This document shows, one piece after another, positions 1,133 through 23,020 of a stretch of 24,439 nt of DNA. The DNA comes from Neolecta irregularis DAH-3 (Eukaryota > Ascomycota > Neolectomycetes > Neolectales > Neolectaceae). A program made the translations under genes and the position numbers. A model generated the notes under the pieces. That model saw only the letters and a list, made by a program, of their open reading frames with translations. It was not told the DNA's origin and made no database searches. The DNA lies in contig LXFE01000214.1 in NCBI GenBank assembly GCA_001929475.1, positions 1 to 24,439 of the forward strand, read 5' to 3'. How positions within the stretch are numbered: the stretch's first letter is position 1; each line of letters opens with the position of its first letter.

Positions 1133-2249
1133 TTACTTATCCCTGGGTTCTATATCAGGTATGGGACCAACGGGTGTGATTGAATGTGGATTGATCTGTG
1201 TATGACTTTTTGTGTAATGTTTCTACCAAATCAGAACACGGCCTGCTCGTGCATACCTTTATATGTTTGAAATTTGTTGTCTCTTTGAATCCAGGTATGT
1301 CATAATAGAGATGCTTCATCCACCGGTTAATATTCGGATAACTACCATTATCAGCGATCCGAATAAAGTCGAGAATTCATACTTATAACGGATCATCCCA
1401 ATGTTACATTTAAAATGTTGAACGTAAACCGGATCGAATCGGATAATTGTAGGGAACAATCGTATATCCGCCTCTGTCAGTTGATCACCAAGTAGATATT
1501 TTCCGCTTCCAAGGATCTTTTCAATCCTATCGAGACTTTTGAAGAGAAAGAGGACTTCTTTTTCATAAACCTCTTGCATAGTCGCGAATCCGGCTTTGTA
1601 TACTCCGTTGTTGACTGTGTCGTAGATCCAATCATTCATCTCATCGATTTGCGAGCGCAGGGCTATTGGGTAATAGTCCTTTTCCGTGTATTTTTTAGCT
1701 ACAAGACAGTCGAATTCCGTATACATCATTCGAATAATCTCGCTAACCCATTAATTAGAGTAGAACCCCAACGTACGAGGATTCATTGCTAACGATCGTT
1801 TCCGTTCTCTTGTCCCAAAGTGTCGGGACTGTATAACGGCCAACGTAATCCGCGTTGGCTTTGAAATATAAATCTTTAAGGTATGTAAATCCATATAGTG
1901 AATCTCCCGTAGCGCCGTCTTCTTTTCGGAATTCCCAGCCTATCAAGTCGGAATGTGATCGTAAGCAACGGTGATTACCGTTTTCCTTGATATGCCAATG
2001 AACGATATCGACGCTAATAATATCTTTCAATCCCTTGAGTTCTCTCACGATCAAGGTTCTTGTCGCCCTATATATCAGTGCAAAGACACCGACTGAATAC
2101 CAAGGACACGCGTAAGAAATGTACAAGTGATACCGATTGTGCTCTGCAGGAAACTTGCTTTTCGGATCACTTGAAATCCAGTCTCGAAACCGCGAGACCT
2201 GACGATGAAATGAACCGTCTTTGCTTGCCCAATCAGTTATTTTAGACAT
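1133..2249 (-). CDS. ECM4: Xi-class glutathione transferase / S-glutathionyl-hydroquinone reductase
   Basis: The protein is predicted to reduce glutathionyl-hydroquinones or related glutathione conjugates in the cytosol, the known activity of the ECM4/YqjG (GST xi) family. Five introns on the minus strand (2068-2100, 1940-1978, 1743-1776, 1342-1382, 1223-1256; 33-41 nt) join six exons into 311 aa, close to the usual family length. The N-terminus begins MSKITDWASKDG. The thioredoxin-fold active site is YACPWATRTL, with the catalytic Cys at about residue 48, followed by VHWH. The GST C-terminal domain carries DPVYVQHFKCN and ends KSHTQINPHSITPVGP, a typical family tail. Splicing is decided by family conservation: CPW|ATRTL, KEN|GWEF and NES|SEIIR are only contiguous after intron removal. 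The chosen ATG matches the family start; an upstream in-frame ATG at 2330 would add a hydrophobic leader that looks like read-through of the 5' UTR. Confidence 0.93.
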
Positions 2250-2342
2250 GTTTGAGGAAGATAATAATCGGAGAACGATAGAGGTTGTGATGATTATATT
2301 GTAGAGAATGAGGGGGATTACAAATCCCATCGCGTCAGCCGA

Positions 2343-2352
2343 ATGACGTCAT
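2343..2352. promoter_or_regulatory. Palindromic CRE-like site (ATGACGTCAT)
   Basis: A perfect 10-bp palindrome containing TGACGTCA lies about 95 bp upstream of the glutathione transferase start. This sequence is the classical binding site of ATF/CREB-type bZIP factors, which in fungi control stress responses. Its place in front of a detoxification gene suggests stress control. That role is inferred from position and sequence only; a chance occurrence is possible. Confidence 0.45.
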
Positions 2353-3075
2353 GAATGAATAGCACTACACGAGAAGAGAATACGAACGACACTAAAGATT
2401 GGAGTATGAATATTAAAATTTCTAGTATGTGGTCAGATAGTCCATCTAATATATAATTATATGCATAGAAACAGATATTTCTAGACAGAAATGTGTATAT
2501 TTATAATGTATACAACAGACAAGGGGATGTAGCATACTACATGCTCTCAATTGGCCTCTGCAAAAGGCTAATTACTCCACATGATACTCCAAAAACTAGC
2601 ATGATCCATTTCCTCAGGCACCAACACAAAAGAGACGATGGCGATTCCGTTATTCTCAAATTGCTTTTGACTTGACATTCCTATTGAAAATGTGACATAT
2701 GTGCTTTGGGAAGGAAGTCGTCCGGTCCCATCTAACAGGCCCTGGATGTTTGGCGGCCCAGACCAAAAGTCTGGAAAAAGATGGTTTGTTGGATGTAACA
2801 AAGACAAGAGAACAGGGTGAGTCAATGGTAAAAGACTTAGTGCGGCGCTAATCTGTGTTTCCCCAGTCGCAGTGAAGCAACGAACCATAAACATAGCCTG
2901 CGCCTGCATAAAACATCGCTGCCTCGCTCAACTCACCGCCAGAACACAGTTTACGCTTTCTGCAACATCCACCATCATCCACCATCATGGTTTTGTGCAT
3001 GCCAGTGTTTTTAGTCCACCAGCTGCTCCTCCCGGTATAGTCAAGTACCTGGTTCTTCGACCGGAAAAACCTTCC
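2353..3075. other. Intergenic region between divergent genes
   Basis: This stretch lies between the minus-strand glutathione transferase and the plus-strand 210-aa gene, so it should hold the promoter of the latter. A minus-strand frame of 113 codons (2568-2909) and an upstream in-frame ATG at 2872 on the plus strand were examined. Neither looks like a conserved protein. No RNA gene or repeat was recognised. Confidence 0.5.
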
Positions 3076-3745
3076 ATGGCCTACCAAAGCACCCATTTTG
3101 ATACAGTGTCGTCGTTTGTCCAGACTTGCACTTTGCTGCATGGCCTCGTCACCAAGTTTGAGTCATGTCTACAAACTCCATGTCTCGACTTGCTGCGTCT
3201 TGCTCAAGAGCTGGTCGAGTTGCTGGACTGCTCTGCCGTCTTGGACCGCGATGACGAGATGCTCGCTCTTGCTCAGGCGGCCCAAGAATGCATGGAAGAA
3301 AGCGACGACATTCTTGATCGAATGTCTGAGACGCTGAAGACGAATATAAACACCAATGTTCAAATAGTAGGTGTTGAGTACTGCGAAATGGCCGAACGTG
3401 CTCTGGTCGACTTGATGTATGCTTGCTATCCTCCTGTAAAACTCAAACTCTAGGTGTTTGCATCGTCAAGGCAGTCTTTTGGCTTACTGGGCCGAACGAG
3501 CCATAGTCGAGGTCAATTCTTCCTCAATGCCCATGTATATGCTTCTATTCCACAATCCTCAAAACATCAGGAAAAGAAGTTTCACATCAGACTCTGGCTG
3601 CTCAATGGGAACGGACTACGATGCTTCAGATACCTCAAGCTGTAGACGATCCTTCAGCCTACACGGACCGGCCTTGAGCCATCAAGAGGCTTCTATAATC
3701 TCATCCCCCGGTCTCCCTCTTGGTATTTGTTTCCTTGCGGCTTAA
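3076..3745 (+). CDS. Hypothetical protein, 210 aa
   Basis: I do not recognise this protein. Exon 1 (3076-3416) and exon 2 (3454-3745) are joined by removing a 37-nt GT-AG intron (3417-3453), which moves the reading frame exactly into the second open frame and gives 210 aa. Residues about 5-110 are predicted mostly helical, with heptad-like leucines (LLRLAQELVELLD, LALAQAAQECMEE, DDILDRMSETLK), so a helical bundle or short coiled coil is likely. The C-terminal part is Ser-rich and less ordered. The start is the ATG in front of AYQSTHF. An upstream in-frame ATG at 2872 would add 68 low-complexity residues and is less likely. No signal peptide or membrane segment is visible. Confidence 0.6.
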
Positions 3746-3997
3746 GCCTAACTAGTGCAAGTAATTAAATGGCGCAAACGGTTTGTCAAAGCGCTGAATT
3801 TTGCCAAAACAATGTAAAGTCCGATTGCTGCGTGTTGTTGGTGTCATCTTGTACAATAAAAGTTATGTTTGTTTACGGTTTGGAATAGTTTTGTACATAG
3901 GGAGTACCGTTATTTTTGAATGCGTAGTCATTCGCACGTGACTGGTAGTAAGAACTCGGGATTTTTTACTGTCCATCAGTCGCATTGGCTTATTTAA

Positions 3998-6953
3998 ATG
4001 GAGACGCCGGTCCACATAAATCCTCCTCCACGACACAAACTACAAGTAGCAGTATATTCAAATTCGACTGTTCCCTTCAGAAGATTTCTGCATCTTACAG
4101 ATCCATCGAATTCTGTTGATACTTTGACCTCCCAAATCCAGGAACGCTTTCACAAGATATATCCTCTTGCACCGTAAGTCTCAGATTAACGAACAAGCAT
4201 GCTGATATTTAGTCCGCTAGCGATTGATCGGGTTCAAGATGGAAATGATTGTGATTTGGATCCCAGTTATATCGTCGACGATGTATTTACCAATGGATCA
4301 CAAGTTAAAATTTTTGTAAACGGAGAATACGAAGTGTCCATGAATGTATACTCCTGCCTCTGGATGCGTCTCTAATAATTGATAGAGGTCTCCACAAACT
4401 ATTGCGACAGCTGCCGGCCCACAATTATTTCAAACCCATGGTTACCGAACATCGCCTTCGGGAGGTCTGGTCACCCCTACTGAATCCGAATCTCGCAGGC
4501 GACAGAAAAGTTTGTCGTTGGGAGTTTCGCCCGGGACGTTGAAATCTGCTCATCCGCTCTTTCGAAAGAATGAATCAAACGTAAAGGGGTTGTACGACCA
4601 AAAGAAAAAGAAAAAAGGGATCAACGCGGATTCCATTAGGGTTGCATCAGAATCAAGATATGATACCGCTCGGCCGGTTAATATCTCTACAAAAGATCCG
4701 ATTCAAACTCGAACGAATAATATTCCAAACAAAGTAGATTCTCAAGCAAAGCAAAGCCAGTCTGTAGAACCTCAAGCTACGCAACAAGTATTAAATACTC
4801 CAATAATAACCAACAAGTCTCAAACTATTTTATCAACAGTCAAAACCAAACCTATCAACGATGCTCCAATCTCGAAAAAGCGCAAACTGAACAATATGAA
4901 AGAAACTCTCGTCGTACTTGAGACTTCGCCTCCCCGCCCCGAATCACATCGATCAATTTTAAACGCCAGCGAATCGCATCCTCAGGAATCCAATAATGCT
5001 CAACCTCTGGCAGGAACAATTCCAAAATTCAATGCAAGAAAGGTGTCTGGAAAATCTGGACTACCCAATAAGCCAATTTTTCAAAATCTAGTCAACTCGG
5101 GACAAGTCCAAGATATATCATCTACACTCCAAAAATATTCCCTGTTATCGACATCACATAACCCAACTGAAGATATCGACCCTCCAGTTTCAAAAAAACG
5201 CAAAAAGACTAAAAAAGCGAAGAAAGAATCGCTTACTGTCCGTGAAACGTCTCCAGGAGAAGCCAAACAACATAAAACGACGGTTAACTCTCATCCTTCG
5301 AGTGTGCCATCAGCTCATGAGGCCGCTAAACTTGCTGCAAAAGAATTATCAGCAGCCAGCGAGGCCGCTCTTGATGCTTTTAGGGCTTTCGATATGTCCT
5401 GTATACCTTCCCAACCAGCCAGGCCTCTCGTTAAACAGATTTCCGCTTCCACTGAGCGGAGAAATGTTTATTCAAAAGTTTCAGAGATGAAGAAAAGTAC
5501 CAGGAAAAATTCAAATATTAAAAATAGCTGTACGATCAAAGGAAGTGATCATTTAAAGAATGTTGGGAATGGAACTGAATTGCGAGCTGTTGAGGAACCG
5601 CCAACACGTCATTTCGAGACTTCGCGTAATCCTTTTCTTTCTTCACAGACGGATCAACTTCATGTTCATAACAGCGAGACGCAACTTACTGAAGATTCGA
5701 GTAGACCTGCTCTCAAGAATAAGAGACCGGCAAAGAGAAAAGCACCAGATCAATGTGAAACCCAAGGGCTTTCAGCAAATACAGAGACAGGATCGGAATT
5801 AAACATGAACCCTGAAAAGGGGAAGCAAGTTGAAAATGAAAATGAACTGATTGTTCCTATGGTGAACCAGTCGGAATTGATTACTGAGTCTGTGATGGTC
5901 GCAACTCTGACAACGGGGAAAAAGCCTAAAAAGAACCGTGCCGCAACCAAAAAGGATGGCAAAGAAGTGTTGAATGGTCTTGAAGATCCATCACATCATG
6001 AATCTCCCTTGCCAGAAATTGAAAAGACAGTAGGTCAAGCCAAGAAACAAAGATCAATGTCATCTTCGAAAGAGTTCGTTGTGCGTTCAGCAACACGATC
6101 ATCTCGTTCTTCAAAAAGAAGAGACATTAAAGAAGTTGAAGTTCCACCGACTCCAGAAGCCCATGATGAGGAAATGGAAGACGCAGTTCCTTTGACTCAA
6201 ATTGTTCTTCTTTCCCCAACTCAGCCTTCGTTCGATATTGACCAAATGATCGATAGCCAGCCACAAAACGTGTTTCCGTCTATGAGAATCTTGGAGCAAG
6301 ATCAAAGGCAATATTCTCCCTCCAGCTCCTCTTTTTCTGACGAACACTGTAACTCTGTTCATATCGTCGAACAAAGGGAGGAAGAAGGAAATGTCGAAAT
6401 GCAGCAAATTTTGAAATCGCCACCTAGAACGAATAACTCCTCAGACAGTCAAGATGAGACGGTTTCTCCTGCCCCAAGTTCAAGAAACAGTTCGATTAGC
6501 GAGGACAACAGTGGAAGCGAGTCTCTCATTGATGATGATAATGACAGTACGGCAAGCGAGGATGAAGACGTCGAACCACTCGAAACAGATGTTGTGAATG
6601 GAATCATCGGTACACAAGAAATTCCCATCGACAAGGACGAAAACTTGCAAGAAGAACAAAATGAACTAAAATCATTGTCTGCGGAAGCCGAAATTCTTCA
6701 GAGCTCTCAACCACGATCACAGTTCTACAAGTCTCTTTCAGAAATATCAAGAGCATTCACTCCAACGGTTCGAGACTCGCGAATCCCGTCACAGAAAATC
6801 ATAAACAGAGAGGAAGAAGCTGAGAGTAGTGAGAATACTTCTTCATCCTCAGATTCAGATGATGAAAGCTCTAGTCCGAAAAAGAATAAACGGCACCCGT
6901 TACTGAGTTTATTCAAGGGAAGTAAGTTGTTTGGATGGCTTCGCAAGGGCTGA
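3998..6953 (+). CDS. Dnt1/Net1-like nucleolar protein, 958 aa
   Basis: The likely role is a nucleolar scaffold related to fission yeast Dnt1 and budding yeast Net1, which link rDNA chromatin and Cdc14-type phosphatase control. Exons 3998-4173, 4213-4345 and 4386-6953 are joined by introns of 39 and 40 nt. Residues 1 to about 103 form the recognisable Dnt1-like N-terminal domain: a short ubiquitin-like segment with LQVAVYSN, FLHLTDPS, IYPLAPPLAIDRVQDGNDCDLDPSYIVDDVF and VKIFVNG (shown as pieces). The remaining 850 residues are predicted disordered, with Lys-rich nuclear/nucleolar signals (KKKKK near residue 138, KKRKKTKKAKK near 343), many Ser/Pro and acidic Ser-Asp-Glu stretches near the C-terminus, and a short basic hydrophobic end (LLSLFKGSKLFGWLRKG). 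The assignment rests on the N-terminal domain and architecture; the precise function is inference. Confidence 0.85.
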
Positions 6954-7431
6954 TTGGATGGTAGAATTTTGAAATGGCGTTTATGGATTAAGAGATCGTG
7001 TGGTTCTTCGTTCTTTTGATGTGTAAATATGTCGGGCACGCATCAAATCCATTATGATTATAACTCGTAAGTATGCCTCACACGTTGGGTACCTCTTCAA
7101 TCTCAGAGCCATTCCCGCTGTTCCACTTTAAAAGCAAAGAGCAGGGAAGAGTGCTCGAAAGGAGAGCAAAAGCTGGAAAGCGATGAACAGAGGGGTTAGC
7201 GAAAAAGAAGAGCTAGCGAGAAATTTGAAAGGAAATAGACTAATACTGTGAAAGTATAGATTTTATTTCGTGCTGCAAGTCGCCCGTAGTTATGATTTAA
7301 GAGTTTGTATTACGAGCGGGAATGCCTTACACGCGATATCACCAGTTGATAAATTACAGGATTCTCTTTCAATTCTTCAATGCTAATATCCTACATTTCC
7401 ATCCACCTCTTGTCCATGAAGTAAATCATTA
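6954..7431. other. Intergenic region with purine-rich tract
   Basis: This is 3' flank of the Dnt1-like gene. A strongly purine-rich stretch on the plus strand (about 7130-7245) keeps several frames open by composition alone. A consensus donor GTAAGT at 7068, with acceptors about 40-70 nt downstream, could splice short exons starting at ATGs near 7029 or 7056. The products would be only 20-45 aa and none is recognisable, so no gene is called. Confidence 0.4.
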
Positions 7432-7845
7432 TCAGTTTGGAAGACCTAGACCGTTTTCATACAGAGCTATAATCGCTCGATTGTAAAAGATAGCACAGTC
7501 ACTGATGTCGTGGGATTGTAGAATCTGTGGATATACTTGTGGATCTGTGTCGACTGTGATAACGATATGGAATGCTTCGTTTGGTACCCTTGGATAGCCA
7601 CAGGCTACAAGCCCATATTGTATGGATATGAATCATTGCTTGCTGTAGGTTCCCTCTAGGTTGATAACTAATGTTATGTGTACTATATTTCACAGGGTGC
7701 AAGTATGGAAGAAAGTACAAGGACTCCTTGTATCTTTAATAGCCCGGAACCTTTCTTTGAGGTTCGTTCTGTATCGAGGAGATGTATATTGGAAGAGAAT
7801 GCAAAGAGCTATCCAAAATAAGTGAGAACCCGACGAAAAGAACAT
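7432..7845 (-). pseudogene. Candidate small secreted protein gene with internal stop
   Basis: A probable signal peptide (start at 7845, hydrophobic core LFWIALCILF) is followed by a 42-nt GT-AG intron (7683-7724) and a second exon ending at 7432. The exon sum is 372 nt, a multiple of three, giving a 123-residue product apart from one in-frame TGA at 7633-7635. After the stop the frame stays open to its end and looks protein-like (YGLVACGYPRVPNEAF, then FYNRAIIALYENG). Length, signal peptide and layout recall small secreted ribonuclease-like effector candidates of plant-associated ascomycetes, but that likeness is weak. The ATG sits only 38 bp beyond the PP4 stop on the same strand. Alternatives are an unrecognised intron that skips the TGA, a sequencing error, or a chance open frame. 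Confidence 0.4.
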
Positions 7846-7883
7846 CCAATTAACAGAAATGCTTTACTTTCTTGTTAGCAGTT

Positions 7884-9000
7884 CTAATTGATCCTTTTTA
7901 CCAAGAAGTATTCAGCAGCCGGTTTCTTCGCAGGCATTCCCCTGGAATCCTGAGGTGCAGCATCGAAAATCTTGAAATTTTCGTTCAAATTTCCATCTAA
8001 TTCCAGGATCGCTGCAACATTCCCACAACTACAATCAGACGATGGAAAATGACAGTTTGTATACCGATAGCAATAGTTCGGTGCGCTCCACACTGTGACT
8101 ATTGCTCCATTAAACATTTCTTTGTATCCCTCCATTACAAGTTGATGAGCTCGAGCTATTAAAGTAATGTCGTTATGATGATTAAAGCTAGAAACCACAT
8201 CCGAACCGAAGAGAAATCCAGCTCCTCGAGGTGAAAGTCCCCATCCATCAATATCTGCATGTTAGCCGAATTTTGAGAATTTTTGCACCATCTGGATCTG
8301 ACCATAACAGATCGCACATGGCACCTTCATGAGGAACTTCTTGTTTCCGATAAATCATCCTAATCTTCAAAGTCAATAATAAATCCATGTGCCTTTAAAA
8401 CCTGATCCAAATCTGTAATACTAGGCGATAACCCTCCATGAACGCAAAACACCTTTCCGTCTACTAACGCCCCTAAACTAAAATAATCGAAAATCTCACA
8501 GCAATATCTCCAGACGTTTGCACTCCCATATTTTCGGACACATTCGTCATAAAATCCATAGACTTGGGTTATTTGGCGCGATTCGTGGTTTCCGCGGATT
8601 AGAGTTATACGATCTGGATATCGGACTTTGTAAGCAAGTAATAGTAAAAATGTTTCGACGCTGTAGAACCCCCGATCCACAAAGTCACCTAGAGGTTCAG
8701 TATACAACTAGAAAATGCTGTATACCCAGAAACAGATAATTTGTATCGGGACATAATCCACCTACTTTGAAAAGCTCCATCAAATCATGAAACTGGCCGT
8801 GAATATCCCCGCATATCTAAGTAACGTCAACACAAAATATAATATCCCGAGGTTGATACTGTCACAGGTGAGTCGACAAATTGAACGTTACTCTCTTCAA
8901 TGAGAATTTCTCTGGCTTTGTGGCATAATTCGCGGACCTCGTGTTCCGAGACAATATTACAATCTCGCAATTGTTCGATTTGGCGATCTAAGTCGCTCAT
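7884..9000 (-). CDS. PPH3: Serine/threonine protein phosphatase 4 catalytic subunit
   Basis: This is a metal-dependent phosphoprotein phosphatase of the PP4/PP2A group. In the PP4 complex it dephosphorylates DNA-damage checkpoint and histone targets. Five introns (8817-8859, 8689-8725, 8365-8401, 8255-8288, 8029-8064; 34-43 nt) join six exons into 309 aa. Signatures are GDIHGQ (residues 50-55), GDFVDRG (78-84), RGNHE (109-113), HGGLSPS and SAPNYCYR. The N-terminus [13 protein letters not shown] and the phrase [15 protein letters not shown] point to PP4 rather than PP2A or PP6. The C-terminus reads AAEYFL followed by five extra residues (VKRIN) before the stop, whereas the family normally ends at the Leu that is carboxymethylated. 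GID8 starts 195 bp away in the opposite direction, so the two share a promoter region. Confidence 0.96.
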
Positions 9001-9195: not shown

Positions 9196-10016
9196 ATGAT
9201 TTACGGCAAGATTAAAATCAAGTCATCGTCATCGTCATCGAACAAGAAACCTGCCTATTCTATTTCGGAATGGGAAGCTAAATTGGACCAGATCTGCGTG
9301 TCAAAACAGTGTGTCGTCGTTATGTCATTATCCTGTTTGACCTTTTAGAGACTTGAACACAATGATAATGAACTATCTCGTTGTCGAGGGATACCAGGAA
9401 GCGGCATCGAAATTTGTACAGGAAGCTAATATCGAACTTCCCGTAGACCACTCACATATATACGAACGAGCACAAATCCGCAATTCAATATACCAGGGAA
9501 AGATTCAAGAAGCAATCGAACGGATAAACGAACTTGAGCCACAGGTATGGGTATCCAAGAATGAAAAAAAATTGTTCACTCGAAAAGCTACTGGATACAA
9601 ATTCGGCCTTACATTTCACACTTCTTCGATTACATCTAATTGAATTAATTCGACAATCCGCGACTTCCTCTTCGAAAGATATTTTCACGGCGCTCACATT
9701 TGCTACCAGTCAACTCGCCCCGCGTGCTTCTGAAAATCCAAAATTTGTTGCCGATTTAGAACGAACGATGGCATTGATTTGTTTTCCTTTGAATAATCTT
9801 CCATCTCAACTCAAGGATCTGATAGACCTCGATTTTCGAAAGGAGGTAGCTACGCAGGTCAATCAAGCGTTATTGGAGACTCAAGAGTGTATCAAGGAGG
9901 CTAAAATTAGGACTTTGGTGAAGCTCTGGAGCTGGGGTGAAAATAAGTTGAAGCAAAACAAGATTGGATTCCCTGGACTGAACATTCTAACGGGCGACTT
10001 TGTCAAGTCTGAATAA
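9196..10016 (+). CDS. GID8: GID complex subunit 8 (LisH-CTLH-CRA protein)
   Basis: This is a core scaffold subunit of the GID/CTLH E3 ubiquitin ligase, which in yeast drives degradation of gluconeogenic enzymes. Exons 9196-9308, 9349-9544 and 9588-10016 are joined by introns of 40 and 43 nt to give 245 aa, the usual family size. A Ser repeat encoded by TCA-TCG triplets (residues 10-15) follows the start. Then come a LisH motif (about 39-68, NYLVVEGYQEAASKF), a CTLH region (IYERAQIRNSIYQGKIQEAI) and a CRA-type helical C-terminus (RLHLIELIRQ, TFATSQLAPRA, EKLK-type end). The second splice restores ELEPQLLDTNSALHF, the conserved CTLH/CRA junction. The start ATG is the only in-frame one before the Ser repeat. 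The gene is convergent with ARC1, 144 bp between stops. Confidence 0.95.
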
Positions 10017-10160
10017 TTGCTTTCTGCTTTGGCACTGGTATCGATTGGCATTGTAGAGAAACATAAAGTTTGACGAGATAGATGAAATCCTTGATAATTT
10101 CTCTTCTTCTCGATTATGACGAAGTCCATATTTCCAGAATGCAAGGAACTATATTTTTAA

Positions 10161-11577
10161 CTACTTTATATCGGCACCAACAAGGCTCTGTGCATGACAT
10201 CTCTCACCATTAACTAGAAGCAATTTCATTTTCCCTTCGCTATCTTTCCACGCTACAGCCCTAGAGTCGGTCGATGTGAAATCAGGTTGAATTGTCTCCC
10301 AAATCTTCTTTTTAGGGTTGAGCACAGGTTCTGGGATTTCATCTTCAAAACCTTCAAACACCGCTCGGTCGCCTAGCTTTGAAGATGCAGGAGGATCGAT
10401 GACTTCGACTTTTCCATCAGAATTGGAGGCGCAGAGTACCATTGCATAGGATTTTACTCCTCTCATTGCTGCGGGTTTCAGGTTACATACTAAAACGACC
10501 TAAGTGATTAGCGATGTATACAAATAGATTTACTTTTCGGCCTTGCATTTGTTCGATTGGAATATGTTTGACAAGCCCAGAGACTACGGTCCGTAGTTCT
10601 GCTTCGCCTACGTCGATTGTTTCGACATATAACGAATCGGCATCGGGATGTTTTTCGACCTTGACGATATGACCAACTCGGAGATCAATCATTCCAGGGG
10701 TAATTATTAATTCTCAAATGTTAATGAATATCTGAACGTGCGTACCTTGAGTCTTTGCTGGCTCTTTCGATTTCTTTTCTTTCTGCTTCTTTTCTTTCTT
10801 CGCACCACCACTTTTTCCCACATCAGCTTGTTGTTCTGTAGCTTCCATCTTGGAAGGTTGAAGCTCTTGGTTGTTTACAGTAGAGCGAACTTTGGTTTTT
10901 TGCAAATCTTGTTTCTTTTTGCCCTTGCGTTGATTCATCTTTTACAAGAATAGAGAAATACCTTTGCCGCATTCAGATCAATTTGTATTTTTTCCAGTTG
11001 TTTAGCAAGGTCATTCTCGCATATTTCAGCCTGATGCTGAATGAAATCGAACCATCGAACAATGTGATTGTTGTTCAATCGATCTTCTCCTCTCCACGAT
11101 TTCTATCGTCAACATGACCTTGATGAGATAGAATACGACGATAGGAATCATTCTCACATATACAGTAACATCCGTCAAAGACATTTTATTTCCAATCATC
11201 CATGTCCGGGTTTCCAAATGAGACTGCAACAACTAGTTCTTAGCACCTCGCCCAAGGTAACTCTACTTTCAAACCCTCTGGATCGGACTCAAATCGATTT
11301 GAAAGGGTTAGCCATTGTTGTACTTCGGCTTTTTCCAGATCTGTGTCTCCGCAGTCTGAGGAGGCGATATAAGTGCAGATTGTGTTTTGACCAGTTAAGG
11401 TTGAGTTGTCGGCAAAAGTTAAATTGGATATCTTAAAGTCAGCAGGATATGAGAATATGTGTCTACCCGAGTCTCTGGAGATGAGATTATTTCAATAGAT
11501 GGATTGGGAAAAATCTTTGCGACCAAAGAGGTTGTAATGTCGTTTCCTGCAATATTAAGTTTGGTAAGTTTGGTCAT
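10161..11577 (-). CDS. ARC1: Arc1-type tRNA-binding cofactor of aminoacyl-tRNA synthetases
   Basis: The protein binds tRNA and, by analogy with yeast Arc1p and animal AIMP1, docks methionyl- and glutamyl-tRNA synthetases to help aminoacylation in the cytosol. Six introns (11432-11466, 11233-11266, 11103-11136, 10924-10961, 10713-10745, 10500-10533; 33-38 nt) join seven exons into 402 aa. Residues 1 to about 165 resemble the GST-C-like docking domain ([21 protein letters not shown], broken into pieces by exon ends; [11 protein letters not shown]). Residues about 172-230 are a Lys-rich linker. From about 238 follows the EMAPII-like OB-fold: [40 protein letters not shown], ending [17 protein letters not shown]. 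For the intron at 11233-11266 an alternative acceptor 9 nt further downstream is also in frame. Confidence 0.95.
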
Positions 11578-12234: not shown

Positions 12235-13600
12235 ATGCTGCCAAAGCTCTTATTTTGGATGCCGCTTTATGCGCATTTTTCCGCTGCTTCGTCTCTCGAT
12301 AAATTTACAGATGTATCAAATTCTTTGCCTTCTAAGCCCAACGTTCGCATCATTGGTAAACTGAGCTCAGTTACTCAGTTCAAAATGAGGTTGAATGACA
12401 ACGAAGTACTAGAGGAGTGTGCACAGCAATGCCTCGATGCGGAGTATGTCTGCCGTTCGATTGTGATTATCAAGGTATCCGATTTTCAACTATGTGTAAA
12501 AGCCAGCACCCTTTCATCGGAATTGACAATTGAACCATCAGAACATAGTCATAACGAAGTGACCGCAAATTATGAGTACGCTTTTATGACTGAATGGAAA
12601 ATTCTGATATTTTAGTATCACTAAGCAACCAAGATTCGACTTCAGAACAGAATTTTCTCAGAATATTCGAAAGATATCAGGGGAAAAGTGGGCCAGTCAA
12701 ATTTTGCGAGGATATGAGGTACCATCACCACCCGATCAACGTCAAGGACTATCTTTCTACTTGCCATTTTTACTTCGTTGCAAGGAGATTATGATGCATG
12801 GCCAACCACCAGAAGGAGTCGATTTTATGAAATTAGGTGATGAGGGAGTTTCTCTGGAGAAAGATATTTCTCGTGGCTCGGAAGCACGAATAGCCCAATA
12901 CCGCAAAATATCTCGGGAAGCAGTCCCAAAACATACGACATTTATCTTAGAATCTGACAGGGGCCTGGACTCTGGCAGGTACCTCGAGCCATTGAAAGAT
13001 CCTTTTAATGGAGGTTCTTCGGAGATCCTTGACACCTTCATGTTGGATTTTCTTGATATATTCAGCAGAAATATTCGTCAAGGCATTACAACTATTTTCG
13101 ATCCAAAGAGGAAATTGTTATATATTGAAGGAGAGGACCTGCACATGCTCGTTGCTTTATTTAGCTCTGGCGAGTATATTATAATACGGGACCATTCTAA
13201 ACTAGCCGATACACATCACCCGTTGGCTAGCTCGACGGAGAAACGCTATCAGAAAACATTATCTGCCTTGGAAATGTTTGAAAGAGCTAGGAGGCATTTC
13301 GGCGGTACAGTTAATTTCTCGCGGCTTCAAGTTCTATATACCGCCTTTGAGGATGCGAAACAGGCAGCGATAAACCTTGTGATTGATGTGGCAAGCTTTG
13401 TCATGTCTCCTACTATAACCAGCGGCCGTAGCGATTCACAACTGTCGACTTCTATGCAATTAATTGGTGATCTCGCGGAGTTTGTCCTCTGGAAAGTATA
13501 TGGCCGGCAATTTCAATCCCAACTTTCTGCTAGCCGCCATCGAAACGATTTCATCAAATCAAGTATAATTACAGTCTTTACAATCCCTAAGAAAATTTGA
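12235..13600 (+). CDS. Secreted apple/PAN-like protein, paralogue A (441 aa)
   Basis: Function unknown. Exon 1 (12235-12575) and exon 2 (12616-13600) flank a 40-nt intron. Residues 1 to about 19 form a signal peptide (hydrophobic LLFWMPLYAHFSA). Residues about 40-100 hold an apple/PAN-like module with Cys62, Cys66, Cys73 and Cys87 (spacing 3, 6, 13). After the intron come FRTEFSQNIRKISG, the phrase MHGQPPEGV, a conserved segment LDFLDIFSRNIRQGIT, and a helical C-terminal region with SSGEYIIIRD. No transmembrane anchor or GPI signal is visible. Paralogue B shares every one of these landmarks and the intron position. A small shadow frame across the intron (12594-12794) should be ignored. A role at the cell surface or in interaction with another organism is plausible from secretion and duplication, but unproven. 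The C-terminal domain matches no family I know. Confidence 0.85.
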
Positions 13601-13838: not shown

Positions 13839-14150
13839 TGTGAGCGTTGGGTGTCCTGCAGCTCAGGAGGCTTCCCTGAGAATACAAGATCGCGATTCGG
13901 GAAAGAAAGGCAACTTCATATATTATTGCTCCGGTTTGGCCTGTCTTGCTAATCAAGCCAGGGCCTACTTATAGAAGAACTGGCACATGCGCTGTTGTCT
14001 CCCTGCCTACCTCTCGGGTGGCAAGGCTTGTGATCGTCCTGACTTGGCTCGGTGGTACTGTCTGCCGATCGGCGGCGCCTTCTGTGGCTCCTGAACCGTT
14101 GGGTGTCATGGTAGCTTGCGATGTAGGGCGCCGGTACTGTCGTCCCTACA
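13839..14150 (-). repeat. 3' LTR of a Ty3/Gypsy retrotransposon (312 bp)
   Basis: Read on the minus strand the block begins TGTAGGGACGAC and ends CAACGCTCACA, so it has TG...CA termini. A TATA-like CTATAAGTAGG lies in the middle. Directly before its TG is a purine-rich tract (GAGACAGGGAGGG on the minus strand; 14151-14163), the expected polypurine primer of a 3' LTR. The integrase/chromodomain fragment lies just upstream on the same strand, as in chromoviruses. No target-site duplicate could be matched at the far end. Confidence 0.75.
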
Positions 14151-14627
14151 CCCTCCCTGTCTCAAAATTCTCATGTTCGCTGGCTCCCCCTGCGTTACCT
14201 GCTCCTGTAACTCATAGAATCGTTGAATGGCTTCCTGAGCATTTGTCATATGCTCTGCTGGCTCCCAAGATGTTTCGTCCCCAGGGAAACCTCTCCACTT
14301 AACCAGATAATAATCTTGTTCTTCCCTCTGTTCGTGATCACGAATTTCTTCCACTTCTTGTTCTGGGAATCCATCCTTGAAATGTATTGGGGGCAGGTAA
14401 TATGGTGTGCAGTTTGGAGAGAGTTGATAATTATTTCCAGGGTATTTCTTGAGTAACAATATTTGGAACTGGTTGAAATTCCTCATGCCTTCTGGCAGCT
14501 TGAGCTTGTAGTTCTTGCTGCTGCCAATTTGGGTGATTGGGAATGGCCCAATCTGTCTAGGCATAAATTTCTTTGTTCCATCTTTTGGTATGAGATTCTT
14601 TGTTGATAGGAGCACCAAGTCTCCCAA
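14106..14627 (-). pseudogene. Gypsy (chromovirus) pol fragment: integrase C-terminus and chromodomain
   Basis: A 173-codon remnant carries the integrase GPF/Y-type end (GDLVLLSTKNL, IGPFPITQIG, LKLPEGMRNFNQFQILLLKK) followed by a chromodomain (EVEEIRDHE, YYLVKWRGFPGDETSWEPAEH). The frame then runs into the LTR before it stops. Reverse transcriptase, RNase H and the integrase core are missing. Upstream of the fragment the frame meets a stop, and only about 200 bp remain before the second LTR-like block. The element is therefore internally deleted and cannot move by itself. Confidence 0.9.
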
Positions 14628-14831
14628 CTTGAATTTTTGGCTCTCTCATCTTCATTTGTTAGCTTGTAATGAATGGTTAATTTTACCCCTAAAGGCTGCA
14701 TCTTCTGTGCGATTCTAATCGATTAGGAACACTGATAAGCTGGTAGCAAGGTAACTTGTGCCCTCCAATTACCTGTAGCAAGAGTAGATGCTGCACTGTT
14801 CTGGTGGGGTTTAACGTTGGATAGTCTTTGT

Positions 14832-15649: not shown

Positions 15650-17027
15650 ATGCCAAAACCCTTCTGGCTGATCTTACTCTATTTGAATGTTACTTGCACT
15701 GCACTTTATCTCGAGAATTTCGCAGATTCATCGAATGATTGGCTCAAAGTCAATGTTGTTGCTCAGGGTGACATAAGCTCATATAGACGTCTGTATGGGC
15801 TCAACAACGAAGAAGCAGTAGAGAAGTGTGCGGGCGAATGCTTCTTAGCGCAGTATGTCTGCAATTCATTCGCCGTAATCCAGGAGTACAACTATAGAAC
15901 ATGTGTGAAAGTTAGCACCTCTTTATCAGGATTGAGGCTTATACCCTCAACGATGAGTAATGTGGTGGTAGGGGTATATAAGTAAACACCTTTGAGCTAT
16001 TGGCAAGCTCTGATATTCTAGTATCCACAAACTACGAAAATTTAATGTTGGAACAGAATTTTCCAGTGATATTGGGAAGAAATCAGGGAGACAGTGGGTA
16101 GATGGTATTTTACAAGGATATGGGTTACCTTCATCAGACGCACTTGGTCGAAGCAACTCTTTTTTCGTGCCTTTTTTGCTCGGCTGCAGGAGCTCTGTAA
16201 TGTATGGTCAACCCCCGAAAGGAGTTGCCAAGATGGCTACTTTAGAGAATGACATTCTCTCTGTCCATGGTCCGGAAGGGCAAATACGCAAACATCGCAA
16301 AATATCTCAGGAATCAACCTTAGAAAGGACGACTCTTTCTACCGGAGGAATTATTACAAGCCTCGATTCATGGACAGATCCCTCAAAAATAAACCCCTCT
16401 TCAGACCCCTCTTCAGAGCATTTTGATACTATTGTGTTGGAGTTTCTCGATATATTCAGTCGGAATATTCGTCAAGGCATTACCACCACTTACGATCCAG
16501 CGAAGAAGTGTCTATTCGTTGAAGGAATGGACCTGCACCTACTCATTGTTTCACTCGGCTCCGGAGAATATATTATAGTACGGGACGGTCCTGCTAAAAA
16601 TGGGATCGAACATGTGCCATACATATATTCCATATATGATCCGAAAATTTCCACTTTGGGCCAACACTTTCCCGAGGAGTTATCTATCTTCAAAGGAGCT
16701 CTACGTAGTTCCGGCCACACAACTGACTATTTGAACCCTCGGGTTTTCCATATAGAGATTCAGGATGTGAAAATGTCAGCGATAGACCTCGTTTTCAAGG
16801 TTGCAATGATCGTCATGACGCCTACCGACTACACCATTCCAAATTTTCTACCAGCTTCTAGACCATTAATCCGCGATCTCGTGGCATTCGTGCTTCTTGC
16901 CGTGTATGGGGAGAACCGTCAATCCAATCCATTTCAAACTCGATTATCCATAGCCAGATCTCAAAGACAGTTCAAAACGGATATGGTTACAATCATTACA
17001 ACCCCAAGTATTGTTGAGGATGTATAA
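15650..17027 (+). CDS. Secreted apple/PAN-like protein, paralogue B (445 aa)
   Basis: This is the second member of the pair and of unknown function. Exons 15650-15981 and 16022-17027 flank a 40-nt intron at the same place as in A. The signal peptide is about residues 1-18 (FWLILLYLNVTCTA). The apple/PAN-like module has Cys60, Cys64, Cys71 and Cys85, the same 3-6-13 spacing as A. Shared landmarks are FNVGTEFSSDIGKKSG, VMYGQPPKGV, HRKISQES, LEFLDIFSRNIRQGIT and LGSGEYIIVRD. The best-conserved segment is identical over 13 residues (FLDIFSRNIRQGIT against A, with one flanking change), while the last 150 residues differ more. The pair arose by duplication before or independently of the retroelement insertion between them. 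The reading frame is intact, so B may be functional. Confidence 0.85.
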
Positions 17028-17823
17028 TAGAGAAAGATGAGCTATGTTTTGGTAGAAAGGGTAAACTGGGTGAGTTCTCCTTTACGAAGTTTTTTGACAA
17101 GTTAGACACTCCCCCCTTTCTTATAATTTCCAAATTCTGAGAACCCTCTTTGCTCATTGTTTTATAATAGCTATTGTTCCCTTTTAGAAAACAATCTTAT
17201 TCTCACTTGTGTAAGCATTCATTTTTCTGACCAGCACTGTCGAAATTCGCTGTTTATTTATTCGTGTCTTTCTCCATTTTCAATGATATTCACGGAATCA
17301 AAACCATCTGCCTTCACGATTGCAACAGAAACTTGGGTCAAATGAGATCTTGCTTCCAGAGAATGAAAATGAAAGAAATGCATGCTTGCAAGACAGCTAG
17401 ACTCAGAAAAGAAGATTATTTCCCATGATCTTTCAATACAGCCACCAAAAATGTATCTCGTGCTGAAAGTGTGCTTCCTGTTACAACATTTTGATGACGG
17501 TTAGCTTACTGGTAGCTAGCGTCGTCTCAATCCAAACATTATAGAAGCAATGTCATTTCATTCAATACCCTTACATTATTTTTCGGCAAGGAAAAATACT
17601 TTATTACTTGAGATGCCAGAACAGGCTACCATGACTTTTCTCAATATTTCACTAATTACTCAATTGTAAGACGGCACGTACTGTCGAAATTGTTCAGGTA
17701 AACTTTCTGTTTACATAGAGCAATTACAATGGCTAATCATATGCAAAAGTTTGCAAAATTTCTATGCAAGTCTGAATAGAACACCCAAATGCATTTAAAC
17801 TGGGAAGAAAAACATCTTTATAT
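17028..17823. other. Intergenic region, nothing recognised
   Basis: This 796-bp AT-rich stretch separates paralogue B from the PNPOx-like gene. Short open frames exist, the largest being 62 codons at 17157-17345, but their composition is Ser/Phe/Cys-rich and not protein-like. No tRNA, repeat or LTR edge was found. Confidence 0.5.
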
Positions 17824-18569
17824 TCAAGGCATACAAGCTATTTCCTCCCAGTCCTTGCCCTCAGTAATAAACCATTTCCGTCTTCTTCCAGGAGCAGGCT
17901 GTGAATGGAGCTCATCAACTTTTTCAATCTCCATTACAACCAAGTGGAATCGATTCAACCCTTCCTCCTCCAATAACTTTTCAGATGGTGCTTTAGCTTC
18001 ACTGTCCTTCAATTCAATTAGGTCCGGTGTTCGACCGTTTGCTTTTTCACCAGGGATCCAAGGGACCGCCATAGAGCCACGAATCCACGCAGGTAATTTA
18101 TTCCATTGACGAAGTCGTTCTTCTTTCCATGACCACTTTTTCCCATCCTCGACATGAAAATGAGCCAGCAAATCTTCCGTATCTTCTTTGATCAAATGTG
18201 CCTTTCCATAAAACCGGTACTGCACAGCTGATTTGGAAAACCAGAAAACTGCTGTGAAATTTGGATTTTGTTTGATCTCTTCATATTTCGGCATTTTAGA
18301 ATCAGTTGTGAAGACCAGAAGATCTGATTTGGCGGGAGGGTTCGAGGAATGATCACCTTTTGAGCGTATTTCTCCTGCAAACCCCCTAAAGACGCAGATT
18401 CGTGATTCCGGGTACTTTTTTCCAAAAGTAGAGAAGGTGAAATTCACTAGGGTTGTGTATCAGTGCCAGTTTATATTTCTGACTGTTTACAAGCATCCTC
18501 GTTCTTGCTCTTTAGATCATGCTCTAGATTTTGGGAGAATCTGGGCTTCCAGGAAGGAAAGTTGGTCAT
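17824..18569 (-). CDS. PNPOx-like FMN-binding split-barrel protein (Alr4036 family)
   Basis: Predicted flavin-binding protein related to pyridoxamine 5'-phosphate oxidase. Its substrate is unknown, since the Alr4036 branch is not proven to make pyridoxal phosphate. Exon 1 (18491-18569) and exon 2 (17824-18446) are joined over a 44-nt intron to give 233 aa. The N-terminus has the family pattern (SWKPRFSQNLEHDL), followed by FTFSTFG and SRICVFRGF, then DLLVFTTDSKMPKYEEI, QNPNFTAVFWF and QYRFYGKAHLI, which form the split barrel. The C-terminal RFHLVVMEIEKVDEL and GRRRKWF are usual for the family. An upstream in-frame ATG at about 18624 would add a basic Ser/Arg-rich leader that could be a mitochondrial signal; I prefer the shorter start, which fits the family. 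Only about 130 bp separate it from the SDR stop. Confidence 0.9.
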
Positions 18570-18701
18570 ATTTGGCGAATATCGGATGAGAGAAGACAAT
18601 CGAGTGTAAGAGTGCGATCTCAACATTTTGATAACACTATTGTTGGAATATACATAATCTACACTATGCTTGTTTTCTTTCACTGTTGATCCAAGTTGCT
18701 G

Positions 18702-19621
18702 TTATAATACCGTAGATGCAACGTTGAAGTTTTCGCTGTAAAATTAACAATATCGTTATAAAGTCTTATACCCAGTAATACTCTCATTCGCTGCCAGCAT
18801 CGTATAAAGAGCTGCGACATCATCCAGATCAGTCATCTTTTGCAAAGCATTGCTTGCAACATGTTTTTTTAATTTTTCTTCGCCAAATCGTGCAGACCAA
18901 TCGGTGAGAATCATACTCGGCGAAACACTGTTTACTCGAATCTTGGGCGCCGAAGCTCTTGCTAAACAGCGAACTAGATGGTTCGCAGAGGCTTTAGTAA
19001 CTGAATAAGCCTGTTTTGGTTAATTTATACTTGGAATCAAAAATACCATTGATGATCCACTTGGCTTGACACCAGCTACAGAAGAAGTAACTATGAATGA
19101 TCCGCCATGTTCATTCACTTCCAAATATGGTTTTGCTGCTTGAAGTAACCAGAGATGCGCTTTTACATTGTAAATCCAAGTCTTGTCCCAGTCTTCATCT
19201 GCAAGTGCGTCTGCAAGTTAATTCGTTTGTTGTGCAATGAAGGCGTACAGATATCGTTAAACTGTGCTGGTTTTGTCCAACCTACATTCGAAACTAGAAT
19301 GTCTAGGCCGCCGAGCTTTGCAACAGCAGTCTAATATCAGCAAGCGGGTTGAAATTGAGGAAATAACCTTTACCAACGCTTCACAACCACCCTTTGTTCC
19401 AACATCTCCTTGGACTGCATAATTCCCTTCTCCCAGTGACTTTGCCAGCTCTTCCGCTCTGGGTGTATTCGAAGAATAATTTATAACACACTTGATCCCC
19501 TTTTCCACGAATTGCCGTGCAATTGTTGCACCTAGACCGGCGGATCCGCCTATAGATCAAAATTTAGTGCGGCGAACCAACTACCGGTAATTAAAGCTCG
19601 CTTTGCTGTTAGTGGCTGCAT
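18702..19621 (-). CDS. Classical short-chain dehydrogenase/reductase
   Basis: NAD(P)-dependent oxidoreductase of about 245 aa; the substrate is unknown. Five introns (19550-19584, 19331-19367, 19211-19248, 19011-19046, 18736-18771; 35-38 nt) join six exons. The cofactor motif TGGSAGLG is at residues 12-20. SNVG (87-90) takes the place of the usual NNAG. The catalytic set is Asn115, Ser143/144, Tyr157 and Lys161 (AYSVTKAS). The C-terminal RVNSVSPSMILTDW and SITGENFNV are typical. Resembles fungal 3-oxoacyl-ACP-reductase-like SDRs. It diverges from the P450 gene over 169 bp and may be co-expressed with it. Confidence 0.92.
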
Positions 19622-19790
19622 TTCTTGTGAATCTTTTGTCCTCAAAATGATATCGCGTTTAGCAATCAACTTAATGGCGCTTATGAGTATGATCCGGAAA
19701 GCTCACATGATACTTGAACTGTTTAAGACCAACCCCACTCTCTGTTGGTCGACCCAAACGTTTTATAATTCTATTCTTATTCGGTAAAAT
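19622..19790. promoter_or_regulatory. Bidirectional promoter region of SDR and P450
   Basis: The 169 bp between the two start codons must serve both genes. TTTTATAATTC about 30 bp upstream of the P450 ATG could be a core promoter element. Shared regulation is inferred from the head-to-head arrangement. Confidence 0.5.
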
Positions 19791-21504
19791 ATGGCAGTTC
19801 TTGCTCTTTTAGGCACCATCTTGGTTGCTGTATTTGTTGGATATTTGCTACTGAATGAAGTTTGGAGAACAAATGTTCGAGTTAAAGGCATCCCGGGTCC
19901 TCAAGGTTTGCCATTGGTAGGAAATCTCCACCAGGTATACATCTTTTTAGTTAGCTCTATTTATAGTCTGAAGATTCGGGGAAGAAATGCCGCTGAAGTT
20001 TATCGCAAATGGGCAAAGAAATTTGGTTCAGGTTGTCATTACCACCTGTAAAGTCGTATTAATCTTCAGTTTATCAAATTCAACTTGGCAATGTCCCGGT
20101 CATCATCGTCTCTTCTGTCAAGGCTGCTCGAGAAATATTCATTGGACAAGGCAGTGCCCTGATTTCCCGTCCAATGTTTTATACTTTCCACAAGGTACGT
20201 CTATTACAGTTGATCTAACTGATGATGGGTTGTTTCTTCCACATCAGCATTCAGTATTGGTACTTCTCCGTGGGATGAGTCGGCCAAACGACGAAGAAAG
20301 GCGGCATCGACAGCTCTTAATCGTCCTGCAGTGCAATCTTATATTCCGTTCCTTGATCTCGAAACAAAAGACTTTATCACAGATCTTTATGAACGAGGAT
20401 TTAAAGGTGAGAGAGCAGTGGACTGCATGCCCATGGTTCAACGATTGTCTCTCAACATGAGCCTTACTCTCAATTATGGTACTCGAATCTCATCTATCGA
20501 TGATGCTCTTTTTGAAGAGATCACAGAAGTCGAAGAATGGATTTCCAAGTTTAGAAGTACCACGGGAAACCTTCAAGATTACATTCCTCTTGTCCGCTTG
20601 AATCCATTAAATGCACATTCAAAATTGGCCTCTGAAATGAGGGACCGCCGAGATATTTATCTTACTAGACTTAATCGAGAGCTCCAGGAACGTATTGGGA
20701 ACGGCACGGACAAACCCTGTATTCAGGGCAATGTTCTCAAGGACCCTGAAGCACAGTTGGACGAAAAGGAACTAATGAGTATCAGTATTACAATGATTTC
20801 AGGAGGCCTCGATACCATTACCACCACTCTCGGGTGGATTGTTGGATTCCTTGCTCGACACCCAGAGGTCCAAGAAAAAGCTTTTCAAGAAATAATCAGT
20901 GCCTATGATACCGACTTCTGGGGCGACGAAACCGAGGAGAAGATCCCGTACATCACGGCTTTCGTCAAAGAAACTTTACGATATTTTACAGTTTTGAGAT
21001 TAGCTTTGCCTAGAGAATCCTTCAAGGATATTGAATATGAAGGAATGAAAATTCCCAAAGGGACCTGTGTATTCCTAAACGCTTGGGGATGTAATCGAGG
21101 TAAGCAACAAATTTGCAGAGGTACTGATTTCACATTAGATGATGAAGCATTCGAAGATCCATTTGAATTCCGACCTGAACGATTCTTGACAGAATCTTCT
21201 GGGACGGCACATTTCGCTTATGGAGCGGGCACAAGAATGTGTGCTGGATCATTACTCGCAAACAGAGAGTTGTATATTGTATTCAGTAAGTTGAATAATT
21301 ACTGACCGTGGCTAATTTTAAGTGCGAATGTTATGGGCTTTCAAGATTGAGCTATCAGAAGATCCGAAAGAACGCGATTTCAATATTGATCCTGTCGAGG
21401 GTTCAGTTGATCCCACTAGTCTTGTCACTCTCCCACCGAGGTTCAAAGTTCGGTTTGTACCAAGAAATGAGCATTATTTGTTGAAATTGATTAAAAAAGG
21501 ATAG
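19791..21504 (+). CDS. Cytochrome P450, CYP504-like (phenylacetate hydroxylase type)
   Basis: Membrane-anchored microsomal haem monooxygenase. The nearest group I recognise is CYP504, which hydroxylates phenylacetate or 3-hydroxyphenylacetate in fungi; the real substrate may differ. Six exons (19791-19934, 19974-20031, 20070-20194, 20229-21099, 21139-21285, 21323-21504) give 508 aa. Residues about 3-23 form the N-terminal anchor, followed by PGPQGLPLVGNLHQ. Also seen are GTSPWDESAKRRRKAA (C-helix region), SGGLDTITTT (I helix), KETLR (ExxR), FRPERF, and the haem signature FAYGAGTRMCAG with Cys at about 434. Introns are 34-39 nt. Intron 3 (20195-20228) starts GTACGT and has a CTAAC branch site but ends in GG instead of AG. 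A canonical alternative (20199-20247) stays in frame but replaces the conserved VVSST segment. The gene may be impaired, or the base may be an error. Confidence 0.92.
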
Positions 21505-22099
21505 TACAAGAGGACAGTTAAATACAGATAAAAGACATGCGTGGAAACTATAATCCTGGTCCTTCTCCAAAATTCTCACCAACTTGTCAGCTTTGGGTTA
21601 GACCTTGGAACCATTCTTAGGATTGCAGCCGATCATATTCGGCACCCGGTCAATCGCAGGTTTGTTCTCCAGTCATATCTGAGATTGTTAAAAATTCAAA
21701 CTAATTAAATCAGTCCTCAATCCCATCAGTCAAAGTTTGGGTTACCGGATTTGTGCAGGATAGATTAATGTGCTAACCTTTGATCTAGGGAACCCAAGGG
21801 TAAGTGGTTAGATCATCTTACCATATATGATTAGATCTGTTTCCTTACTTTTCTCCGGCCTTGCGCACTACTCAATACTTGCTTTGGCACTGTGAGACTA
21901 GAATAAGATAAGATGTTCGTATCATTATATTGTAATATATATACGCCTCCTATCCTTGATGAATAAGTGGTTAAGTGAAGAATCTGGCAACACTAGGTAT
22001 CAATTAATTACAGCAGAACTTCTATTGCCTACCATAAACTCCTTCGAATAGAAAAACACTAAACGCAAAGCCAGGGAAATTGCATGAAAAATAATCTAC
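21505..22099. other. Intergenic region between convergent genes
   Basis: This stretch holds the 3' flanks of the P450 and the 2OG-Fe(II)-like gene and, in its right half, a possible solo LTR (21738-21992, listed separately). No coding sequence is supported. Confidence 0.5.
21738..21992 (+). repeat. Possible solo LTR (Copia-like) relic
   Basis: The stretch starts TGGGTTACCGG and ends CTGGCAACA, so it has TG...CA edges. It has an internal TATATATACGCC followed by CTTGATGAATAAG, a layout common in fungal Copia LTRs (TATA, then a short R/U5 region). No internal element and no clear target-site duplication are seen. The call rests on layout only. Confidence 0.3.
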
Positions 22100-23020
22100 T
22101 CAACGAATTTCATTGTATGTAGCTGTCAAATAACCCTTGATTCGATCACACGCTGCTCGAAACTTTTCTTTATCGATTCTACCACTCTCTTGGATCTCGG
22201 AAGATAGCGAATGCAGAAGCCTTTCAATTTTTCCGAACCGATAGAATACCCACTGAGTGTAAAGTTCGTTGGGATTGCTGAGTGGTCGAGCTAGATTTAA
22301 GGAAGAGTCGTCGAAAATCCTTGGATCAGATAGTGTGAATGCAGTAGACATAGTTATTCGCTCAGCCCCATTTTTTGATGCGACAGACATCATTTGGAGG
22401 AGTCGGCTTTGAATGAGGATTGCATAACCCTAAACTATCAACTCCTCAACACGGAGGGGTATTTACTTGTTTTGGAGGCTCTAGCGTGTATAACCTTCCG
22501 CGATTGTCCTGGATCAGAATTTCTCCGCCAATTTCAATATTCGGCGAAAGCATAATGATACAGAGAAAAGGGTATGGTTTACGATGCCACCCTTGGACAA
22601 TGGAAGCATTAGGTTGCTGGATATGTGTTTCGCCAATTTCGTAATCGATAATCGGCTCCAAACCAATACCTGCAACAGACGAGAGGGCTTCAAGGACCAA
22701 GGGGTGTTTCCAGGCGGCAGTGATAAAAGGCGCAAGGTTTGGACACATTCCTCGAAGGTGCATTTGGGTTTTATCAGCATTATACTTTTTGCAATGTTGC
22801 CAAACACCGGGACTCATTACTTCTCGTCTCCTGGATGCAGTCAACAATCAAGTCAAATATTGGGTGAATCATACATCTCTTCGAGTGCCTTGAGGGTGAA
22901 CAGTGGAAAAGCCGATGAGTAGGCTATTGGTGACAATTCAGACGACATGCCGAAACTGCTTATAGGCGTCTTCGATTCTGGCGGCGAGAAACACAAGTGG
23001 GTATCGGGATTAAAAGACAT
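22100..23020 (-). CDS. 2OG-Fe(II)-dioxygenase-like protein with degenerate metal site
   Basis: The 279-aa product resembles a widespread fungal family of double-stranded beta-helix, 2OG-Fe(II) oxygenase-like proteins often found beside metabolic genes. Exons 22875-23020, 22467-22830 and 22100-22429 are joined over introns of 44 and 37 nt. Family landmarks: PIAYSSAFPLFTL near residue 33, LRGMCPNLAPF, AGIGLEPIIDYEIGETHIQ, WHRKPYPFLCIIML, GGEILI and ERITMSTAF. The family iron motif normally reads WHxDSYPF; here it is His131-Arg-Lys133, so the acidic ligand is missing. The distal His expected after the last splice (Y-I-x-H-x-A-L type) is replaced by LLQMMSV. The frame is open throughout, so the protein may be made, but it should not bind iron in the usual way. 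It is convergent with the P450. Confidence 0.87.

Follow-up and report, generated by a model that had tools for sequence, protein, structure and literature searches.

Are the very short introns that appear along one stretch of the Neolecta irregularis DAH-3 genome real, and do they characterize this stretch or the genome as a whole? The stretch (contig LXFE01000214.1, positions 1 to 24,439; hereafter the window, 24,439 nucleotides (nt) in length) comes from a member of the Taphrinomycotina, class Neolectomycetes. Neolecta is a fruit-body-forming fungus whose gene set is small (PMC5309816), and the N. irregularis genome comprises 14.5 megabases (Mb) and 5,546 genes (PMC5309816). A preliminary description of the window had reported 36 introns of 33–44 nt in twelve genes and read them as compaction particular to the lineage. 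We find that the short-intron pattern is real and genome-wide in N. irregularis, and we put at roughly 0.93 the probability that these are ordinary U2-type introns shortened across the genome to a narrow size class.

Intron lengths in the window and across the genome

Proteins were aligned to genomic DNA with a spliced aligner that applies one constant penalty to introns of 18–1000 nt and admits only GT or GC donors and AG acceptors. With a glutathione transferase (3ppu), a PP2A phosphatase and a Gid8 relative (P0001, 91% identical) as queries, homology fixed 12 introns in three window genes. The xi-class glutathione transferase gene, on the reverse strand, contains introns of 33, 39, 34, 41 and 34 nt (2068–2100, 1940–1978, 1743–1776, 1342–1382 and 1223–1256), and the PP2A-type phosphatase gene, also on the reverse strand, introns of 43, 37, 37, 34 and 36 nt (8817–8859, 8689–8725, 8365–8401, 8255–8288 and 8029–8064). 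Two introns of 40 and 43 nt interrupt the Gid8/CTLH gene on the forward strand (9309–9348 and 9545–9587). The preliminary description had placed its introns between 1223 and 22874; these limits recur here as the lowest coordinate of a homology-derived intron and the highest coordinate of a gene-finder intron. Its size range holds for these 12 introns, all of 33–43 nt; the remaining window introns have a gene-finder basis only, and independent confirmation thus covers part of its set of 36.

The pattern extends beyond the window. We analysed 8.96 Mb of sequence in 363 contigs, about 62% by length of the 14.5 Mb assembly, using as queries PDB-derived sequences of five proteasome subunits, U2AF23 and actin, together with a CCT-gamma relative (P0123) and the public BLM10 model (P0241). 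Including the window genes, this gave 54 introns in 12 genes that were picked partly for having introns; 40 were obtained via homologues and 14 via the BLM10 model, and 42 lie in genes outside the window. The median length is 37 nt and the mean 37.96 nt, with a minimum of 33 nt. Fifty-two introns measure 33–44 nt and the other two 45 and 55 nt, and 40 of the 54 are shorter than 40 nt (one alpha-7 intron, with an ambiguous boundary, is 36 or 39 nt). The annotation from which the BLM10 introns come has stated RNA sequencing support for 99.4% of genes (PMC5309816).

A second estimate came from the spacing of exons. Across all analysed contigs, 183 exon matches to three Pfam families yielded 100 ordered neighbour pairs at most 2,500 nt apart, of which 73 were usable by virtue of a small profile gap and 27 were dropped; some of these genes overlap with the 12-gene set. 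The median estimate is 38 nt, with 63 of the 73 pairs at 25–50 nt. Compaction is thus a feature of the genome, and both medians fall below the 50 nt that the preliminary description had set as an upper bound for its claim. Its wording that such introns occur in every gene was too broad, as two proteasome-family matches (C60 and C202) run uninterrupted across nearly the whole domain.

Could the short gaps instead be reading-frame joins made by eye, with the real introns longer or missing? Gene finders do invent joins. Our two-strand gene finder covered 24 stretches, the window among them, with a flat length prior of 18–400 nt; it reported 201 'introns' in a decoy of complement-letter sequence, and gene-finder introns sometimes disagree with homology (61 and 66 nt versus 34 and 33 nt). 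At 30–49 nt it placed 143 of 278 introns, compared with 27 of the 201 in the decoy; the counts were 12 versus 15 at 50–59 nt and 113 versus 149 at 60 nt or more, the excess over the decoy being confined to the 30–49-nt class. Because its splice signals were learned from introns no longer than 60 nt, it may have been biased towards short ones, and its branch motif was supplied with a flat position. We discarded the longer gene-finder introns because the decoy yielded as many. An earlier run, for which introns of every length served as training and no decoy was made, put 106 of 272 introns at 30–49 nt with a median of 67 nt, the rest being widely scattered. Runs of restricted length (258 of 349 introns at 30–49 nt, versus 87 of 230 in the decoy) served to set boundaries and draft proteins, and no claim about length draws on them. 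The first gene finders, which fused adjoining genes through long false introns, were abandoned in favour of the two-strand version with its decoy, which performed better.

The protein alignments, however, argue against such an artefact of gene modelling. In length-neutral alignment, 53 of the 54 introns measure 33–45 nt. When six decoy pairs of splice dinucleotides were used as a control, GT–AG outscored all six in each of four genes (the three window genes and CCT-gamma), and the decoy-pair gaps in the three window genes still measured 22–68 nt; approximate intron length is therefore fixed by the protein. The segments are also missing from the frames of relatives. P0001, on a 1,227-base contig, has an uninterrupted frame through both Gid8 introns, and P0123, about 91% identical and on a 1,931-base contig, has one through six CCT-gamma introns. 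These contigs, whose source type is unstated, are most simply complementary DNA, and their frames suggest that the Gid8 and CCT-gamma introns are removed from messenger RNA. We consider an artefact largely refuted and give it almost no weight.

Gene models may nevertheless err, as the preliminary description had warned. The public CCT-gamma (P0121) and BLM10 (P0241) models splice onto the DNA with neither mismatch nor gap outside split codons, which were left uncounted (525 of 528 and 1877 of 1884 residues identical, respectively). The BLM10 model, with 14 introns, agrees with the DNA throughout. The CCT-gamma model diverges from P0123 at about residues 294–313, where P0123 fits best with a 35-nt GC–AG intron (L024:7677–7711; score 2567 with GC allowed versus 2468 with GT only). 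This short intron is thus mis-spliced in the CCT-gamma model, one of two public models that we checked. Introns that are multiples of three within open frames, another feature proposed from the window, account for 3 of the 12 verified window introns (1940–1978, 2068–2100 and 8029–8064). Selection against stop-free introns of this kind was not demonstrated among the 54, of which 15 are divisible by three compared with 18 expected.

Splice signals and their recognition

The introns are standard U2-type spliceosomal introns. Within the dinucleotides admitted by the aligner, 53 of the 54 begin with GT and one with GC, and all end in AG. As first noted in the window, most donors are GTAT (26) or GTAA (7), followed by GTAC (6) and 15 others, including the one GC. 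Position +3 is A in 76% and +4 is T in 63%; G at +5 reaches merely 46% and +6 is almost uninformative. Acceptors are TAG (32), CAG (12), AAG (9) and GAG (1).

The branch-like CTRAY described just before the AG was also recovered. CTRAY occurs in 22 of the 54 introns, compared with a mean of 5.6 when intron interiors were shuffled, and the looser YTRAY in 42, compared with a mean of 16.1 and a maximum of 26 over 200 shuffles. The A of YTRAY lies at a median of 8 nt before the intron end, leaving about 5 nt between motif and AG, these being motif-based positions of unmapped branch sites; in 36 of the 54 introns it falls 5–13 nt from the end (6.1 in shuffles). The spacing peak recurs in 119 additional gene-finder introns, 89 of which have the motif, the finder having been given the branch motif with flat position. 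By these motif-based predictions, the branch site is close to the AG and its distance varies little. In the 37 introns chosen for a motif 4–14 nt from the end, donor and predicted branch A are 24–41 nt apart (median 29 nt), and in 32 of them the first AG past the motif is the acceptor. Over 162 nt between motif and acceptor, composition is T 0.37, C 0.14, A 0.22 and G 0.265, with no pyrimidine tract or enrichment.

We propose that each intron would be recognized as one unit (intron definition). U1 would bind the weak GTATGN donor, and the branch motif would be bound by SF1 and then by U2; U2AF35 would bind the AG a few bases beyond, the first AG past the motif usually being taken. Other intron sequence may have been lost through deletion bias or selection for compactness, unless it holds cargo such as a small nucleolar RNA (snoRNA).

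The lack of a pyrimidine tract raises the further question of whether the machinery itself has changed, a lost or altered U2AF65-dependent recognition of that tract permitting or forcing short 3′ ends. We recovered a U2 small nuclear RNA (RF00004, 132.8 bits) and a U2AF35 close to Schizosaccharomyces pombe U2AF23 (E-value 8.6e-93). U2AF65 was not recognized in the partial assembly, either by protein search (four weak RRM matches) or with TIGR01642 (17 matches, none above cut-off), and a protein that we take to be RBM39/CAPER-like is present. U6 (RF00026) was not found in the analysed portion of the assembly, and we do not claim its absence. However, one missing gene says little here: 12 proteasome-subunit loci were counted, the weakest uncertain, where 14 subunits are expected. 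Searches can also miss genes, as a search of the analysed contigs with human SF1 gave no match despite a BBP/KHDC4-type KH exon (G000 C5:13001–13129), whose discovery led us to withdraw an initial call that SF1 is absent. We treat the non-recovery of U2AF65 and U6 as no more than a lead because the assembly is partial and exon-wise searches miss genes, and we judge altered machinery unlikely. A more specific proposal, also improbable, is that U2AF65-dependent recognition of the tract has been dispensed with although the genome is fully intron-rich. Branch spacing alone would then set the 3′ splice site, with assistance from U2AF35 and possibly a second UHM protein, and introns throughout the genome could have contracted to the smallest size that accommodates U1 and U2.

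Several observations weigh against our reading of uniformly shortened U2-type introns. No intron in the set of 54 exceeds the 5′-proximal actin intron (L001, 1449–1503), which measures 55 nt and has only five residues anchoring its upstream side. Eight of the 73 exon-spacing estimates exceed 60 nt; three of these are kinase pairs in which the same open-frame length is tabulated on both sides, as for a protein insertion. YTRAY is missing from 12 of the 54 introns, and the narrow spread in the 37-intron spacing subset is partly imposed by how it was selected. With these points taken into account, ordinary U2-type introns shortened across the genome remain the reading we prefer, in a size class of about 31–47 nt.

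Predicted longer introns and other features of the window

Is this size class a physical ceiling, a spliceosome that handles only introns near 37 nt? The very narrow range of lengths and the 24–41 nt from donor to branch A in the chosen 37 introns would fit such a ruler. Against it stand the 55-nt actin intron and three longer introns predicted on the forward strand of the window at 311–827, upstream of the span covered by the preliminary description. These were paired by eye from site scores: a 143-nt intron (311–453) with no snoRNA family match inside, upstream of an snR55-like RNA; a 123-nt host intron (475–597) around that RNA (497–570; Rfam score 36.9 bits, below the gathering threshold of 50); and a 209-nt host intron (619–827) around snR61 (689–775; 59.1 bits). 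Fungal snoRNA cluster II is known as snR57–snR55–snR61 (PMC3596301), and the region is probably this cluster with snR61 and a weak snR55; no match to snR57 was obtained at 311–827. The three predicted introns would be exceptions to the short length and imply no hard ceiling. If the longer snoRNA-host introns are real, length is limited by content and not by the spliceosome, and we regard a ceiling as very improbable.

Elsewhere in the window, gene finding predicts introns of 39 and 40 nt in a gene for a large protein (4174–4212 and 4346–4385, forward; gene finder only), of 34 and 33 nt in a gene with a tRNA-binding domain match (10500–10533 and 10713–10745, reverse), of 36 nt in an SDR-like gene (19011–19046, reverse) and of 37 and 44 nt in a gene at 22100–22948 (22430–22466 and 22831–22874, reverse). 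A 40-nt intron in the forward-strand gene at 12259–13600 (12576–12615) comes from the restricted-length gene finder only, other runs giving 70 nt. In a forward-strand cytochrome P450 gene, identified by its domain match, the gene finder places a 39-nt intron (21100–21138), and the restricted-length run only a 37-nt intron (21286–21322), for which other runs give 67 nt. By eye, frame continuity in the P450 gene also points to a 34-nt candidate at 20195–20228 with a GT donor and CTAAC that ends in GG and not AG, which may be an odd acceptor, a pseudogene or a sequence error. The genes at 12235–13600 and 15650–17027 look alike by eye, and they flank a low-complexity, GC-rich stretch and, also judged by eye, a chromodomain/integrase-like retroelement piece (14106–14645).

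Two leads outside the window were set aside. Stretch L025 (23% GC) was considered as mitochondrial DNA and dropped, its low GC being an artefact of 5202 N among 10000 bases, mostly in the first 5 kilobases; and a draft alpha-type proteasome protein, which gave no PDB match at a cut-off of 1e-100, was not used.

Comparison with known splicing systems

S. pombe, of the same subphylum, has GTATGT-like donors, as does Neolecta. It also shares U2-type introns with a CTRAY branch motif (PMC2483917) and, in U2AF23, a protein of the U2AF35 type. The two differ in median intron length (56 nt versus 37 nt; PMC2483917) and in the median distance from branch to intron end (12 nt versus 8 nt; PMC4079972, in which introns below about 75 nt are poorly sampled), and Neolecta is much richer in introns (4202 versus 862 where 1211 orthologues were analysed; PMC7940399). 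The Taphrinomycotina might have inherited both short introns and a short branch-to-AG distance from their common ancestor, with Neolecta at the short extreme. That branch distance in S. pombe points this way, as do its median length, intermediate between other fungi and Neolecta, and the high intron density common to Pneumocystis and Neolecta (PMC7940399). Novakomyces olei, by contrast, has a median intron of 261 nt (PMC7912804; annotation quality unchecked), and we hold a shared trait to be a tentative possibility, somewhat short of even odds.

The view that the window's introns are shorter than those of most ascomycetes is in line with published medians: 37 and 38 nt here compare with 56 nt in S. 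pombe and Gibberella zeae, 61 nt in Aspergillus fumigatus, 63 nt in Aspergillus nidulans and 83 nt in Neurospora crassa (PMC2483917). Placing them near the lower limit for spliceosomal introns was an overstatement, as medians reach 25 nt in Paramecium and 19 nt in the Bigelowiella nucleomorph (PMC2483917). The published median for Encephalitozoon is 32 nt (13 introns; PMC2483917). Cryptococcus neoformans resembles Neolecta as an intron-rich fungus with many introns below 60 nt. Its median, however, is 55 nt (PMC2483917), and its introns below 40 nt are few and poorly spliced (PMC11913375), whereas 40 of 54 Neolecta introns are that short. Paramecium and the Bigelowiella nucleomorph likewise have many uniformly short introns, with very little branch motif (PMC2483917). 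Neolecta falls outside this mini-intron class: its median is 37 nt and its minimum 33 nt, and 42 of 54 introns carry a branch motif.

We found no stated intron length for Neolecta in the literature searched; the supplements of PMC5309816 and PMC8476143 may contain one. For gene prediction in N. irregularis, the prior on intron length should lie near 37 nt and GC donors should be allowed. Neolecta is also naturally suited to testing how spliceosomes assemble when about 29 nt separate the donor from branch A and a pyrimidine tract is lacking, and if the 3′ splice site is chosen through spacing or through factors.

Yarrowia, Debaryomyces and Eremothecium, like Neolecta, keep the branch site a few nucleotides from the AG. 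They are intron-poor with a strong ACTAAC (PMC2483917), whereas Neolecta has many introns and its motif is degenerate: it shares the short distance of this constrained class (median 8 nt) and lacks its strong consensus (CTRAY in 22 of 54) and intron poverty. A comparison of 50 eukaryotes associates fixed branch-to-AG spacing and strong 3′ signals with intron-poor genomes, and very weak signals with short-intron genomes (PMC2483917). Uniform shortness and fixed branch-to-acceptor spacing within an intron-rich genome are what is unusual in Neolecta, a mix undescribed in the parts of that comparison available to us. With introns that are numerous, short and degenerate in motif, yet fixed in their branch-to-AG spacing, Neolecta seems to combine two opposed published classes.

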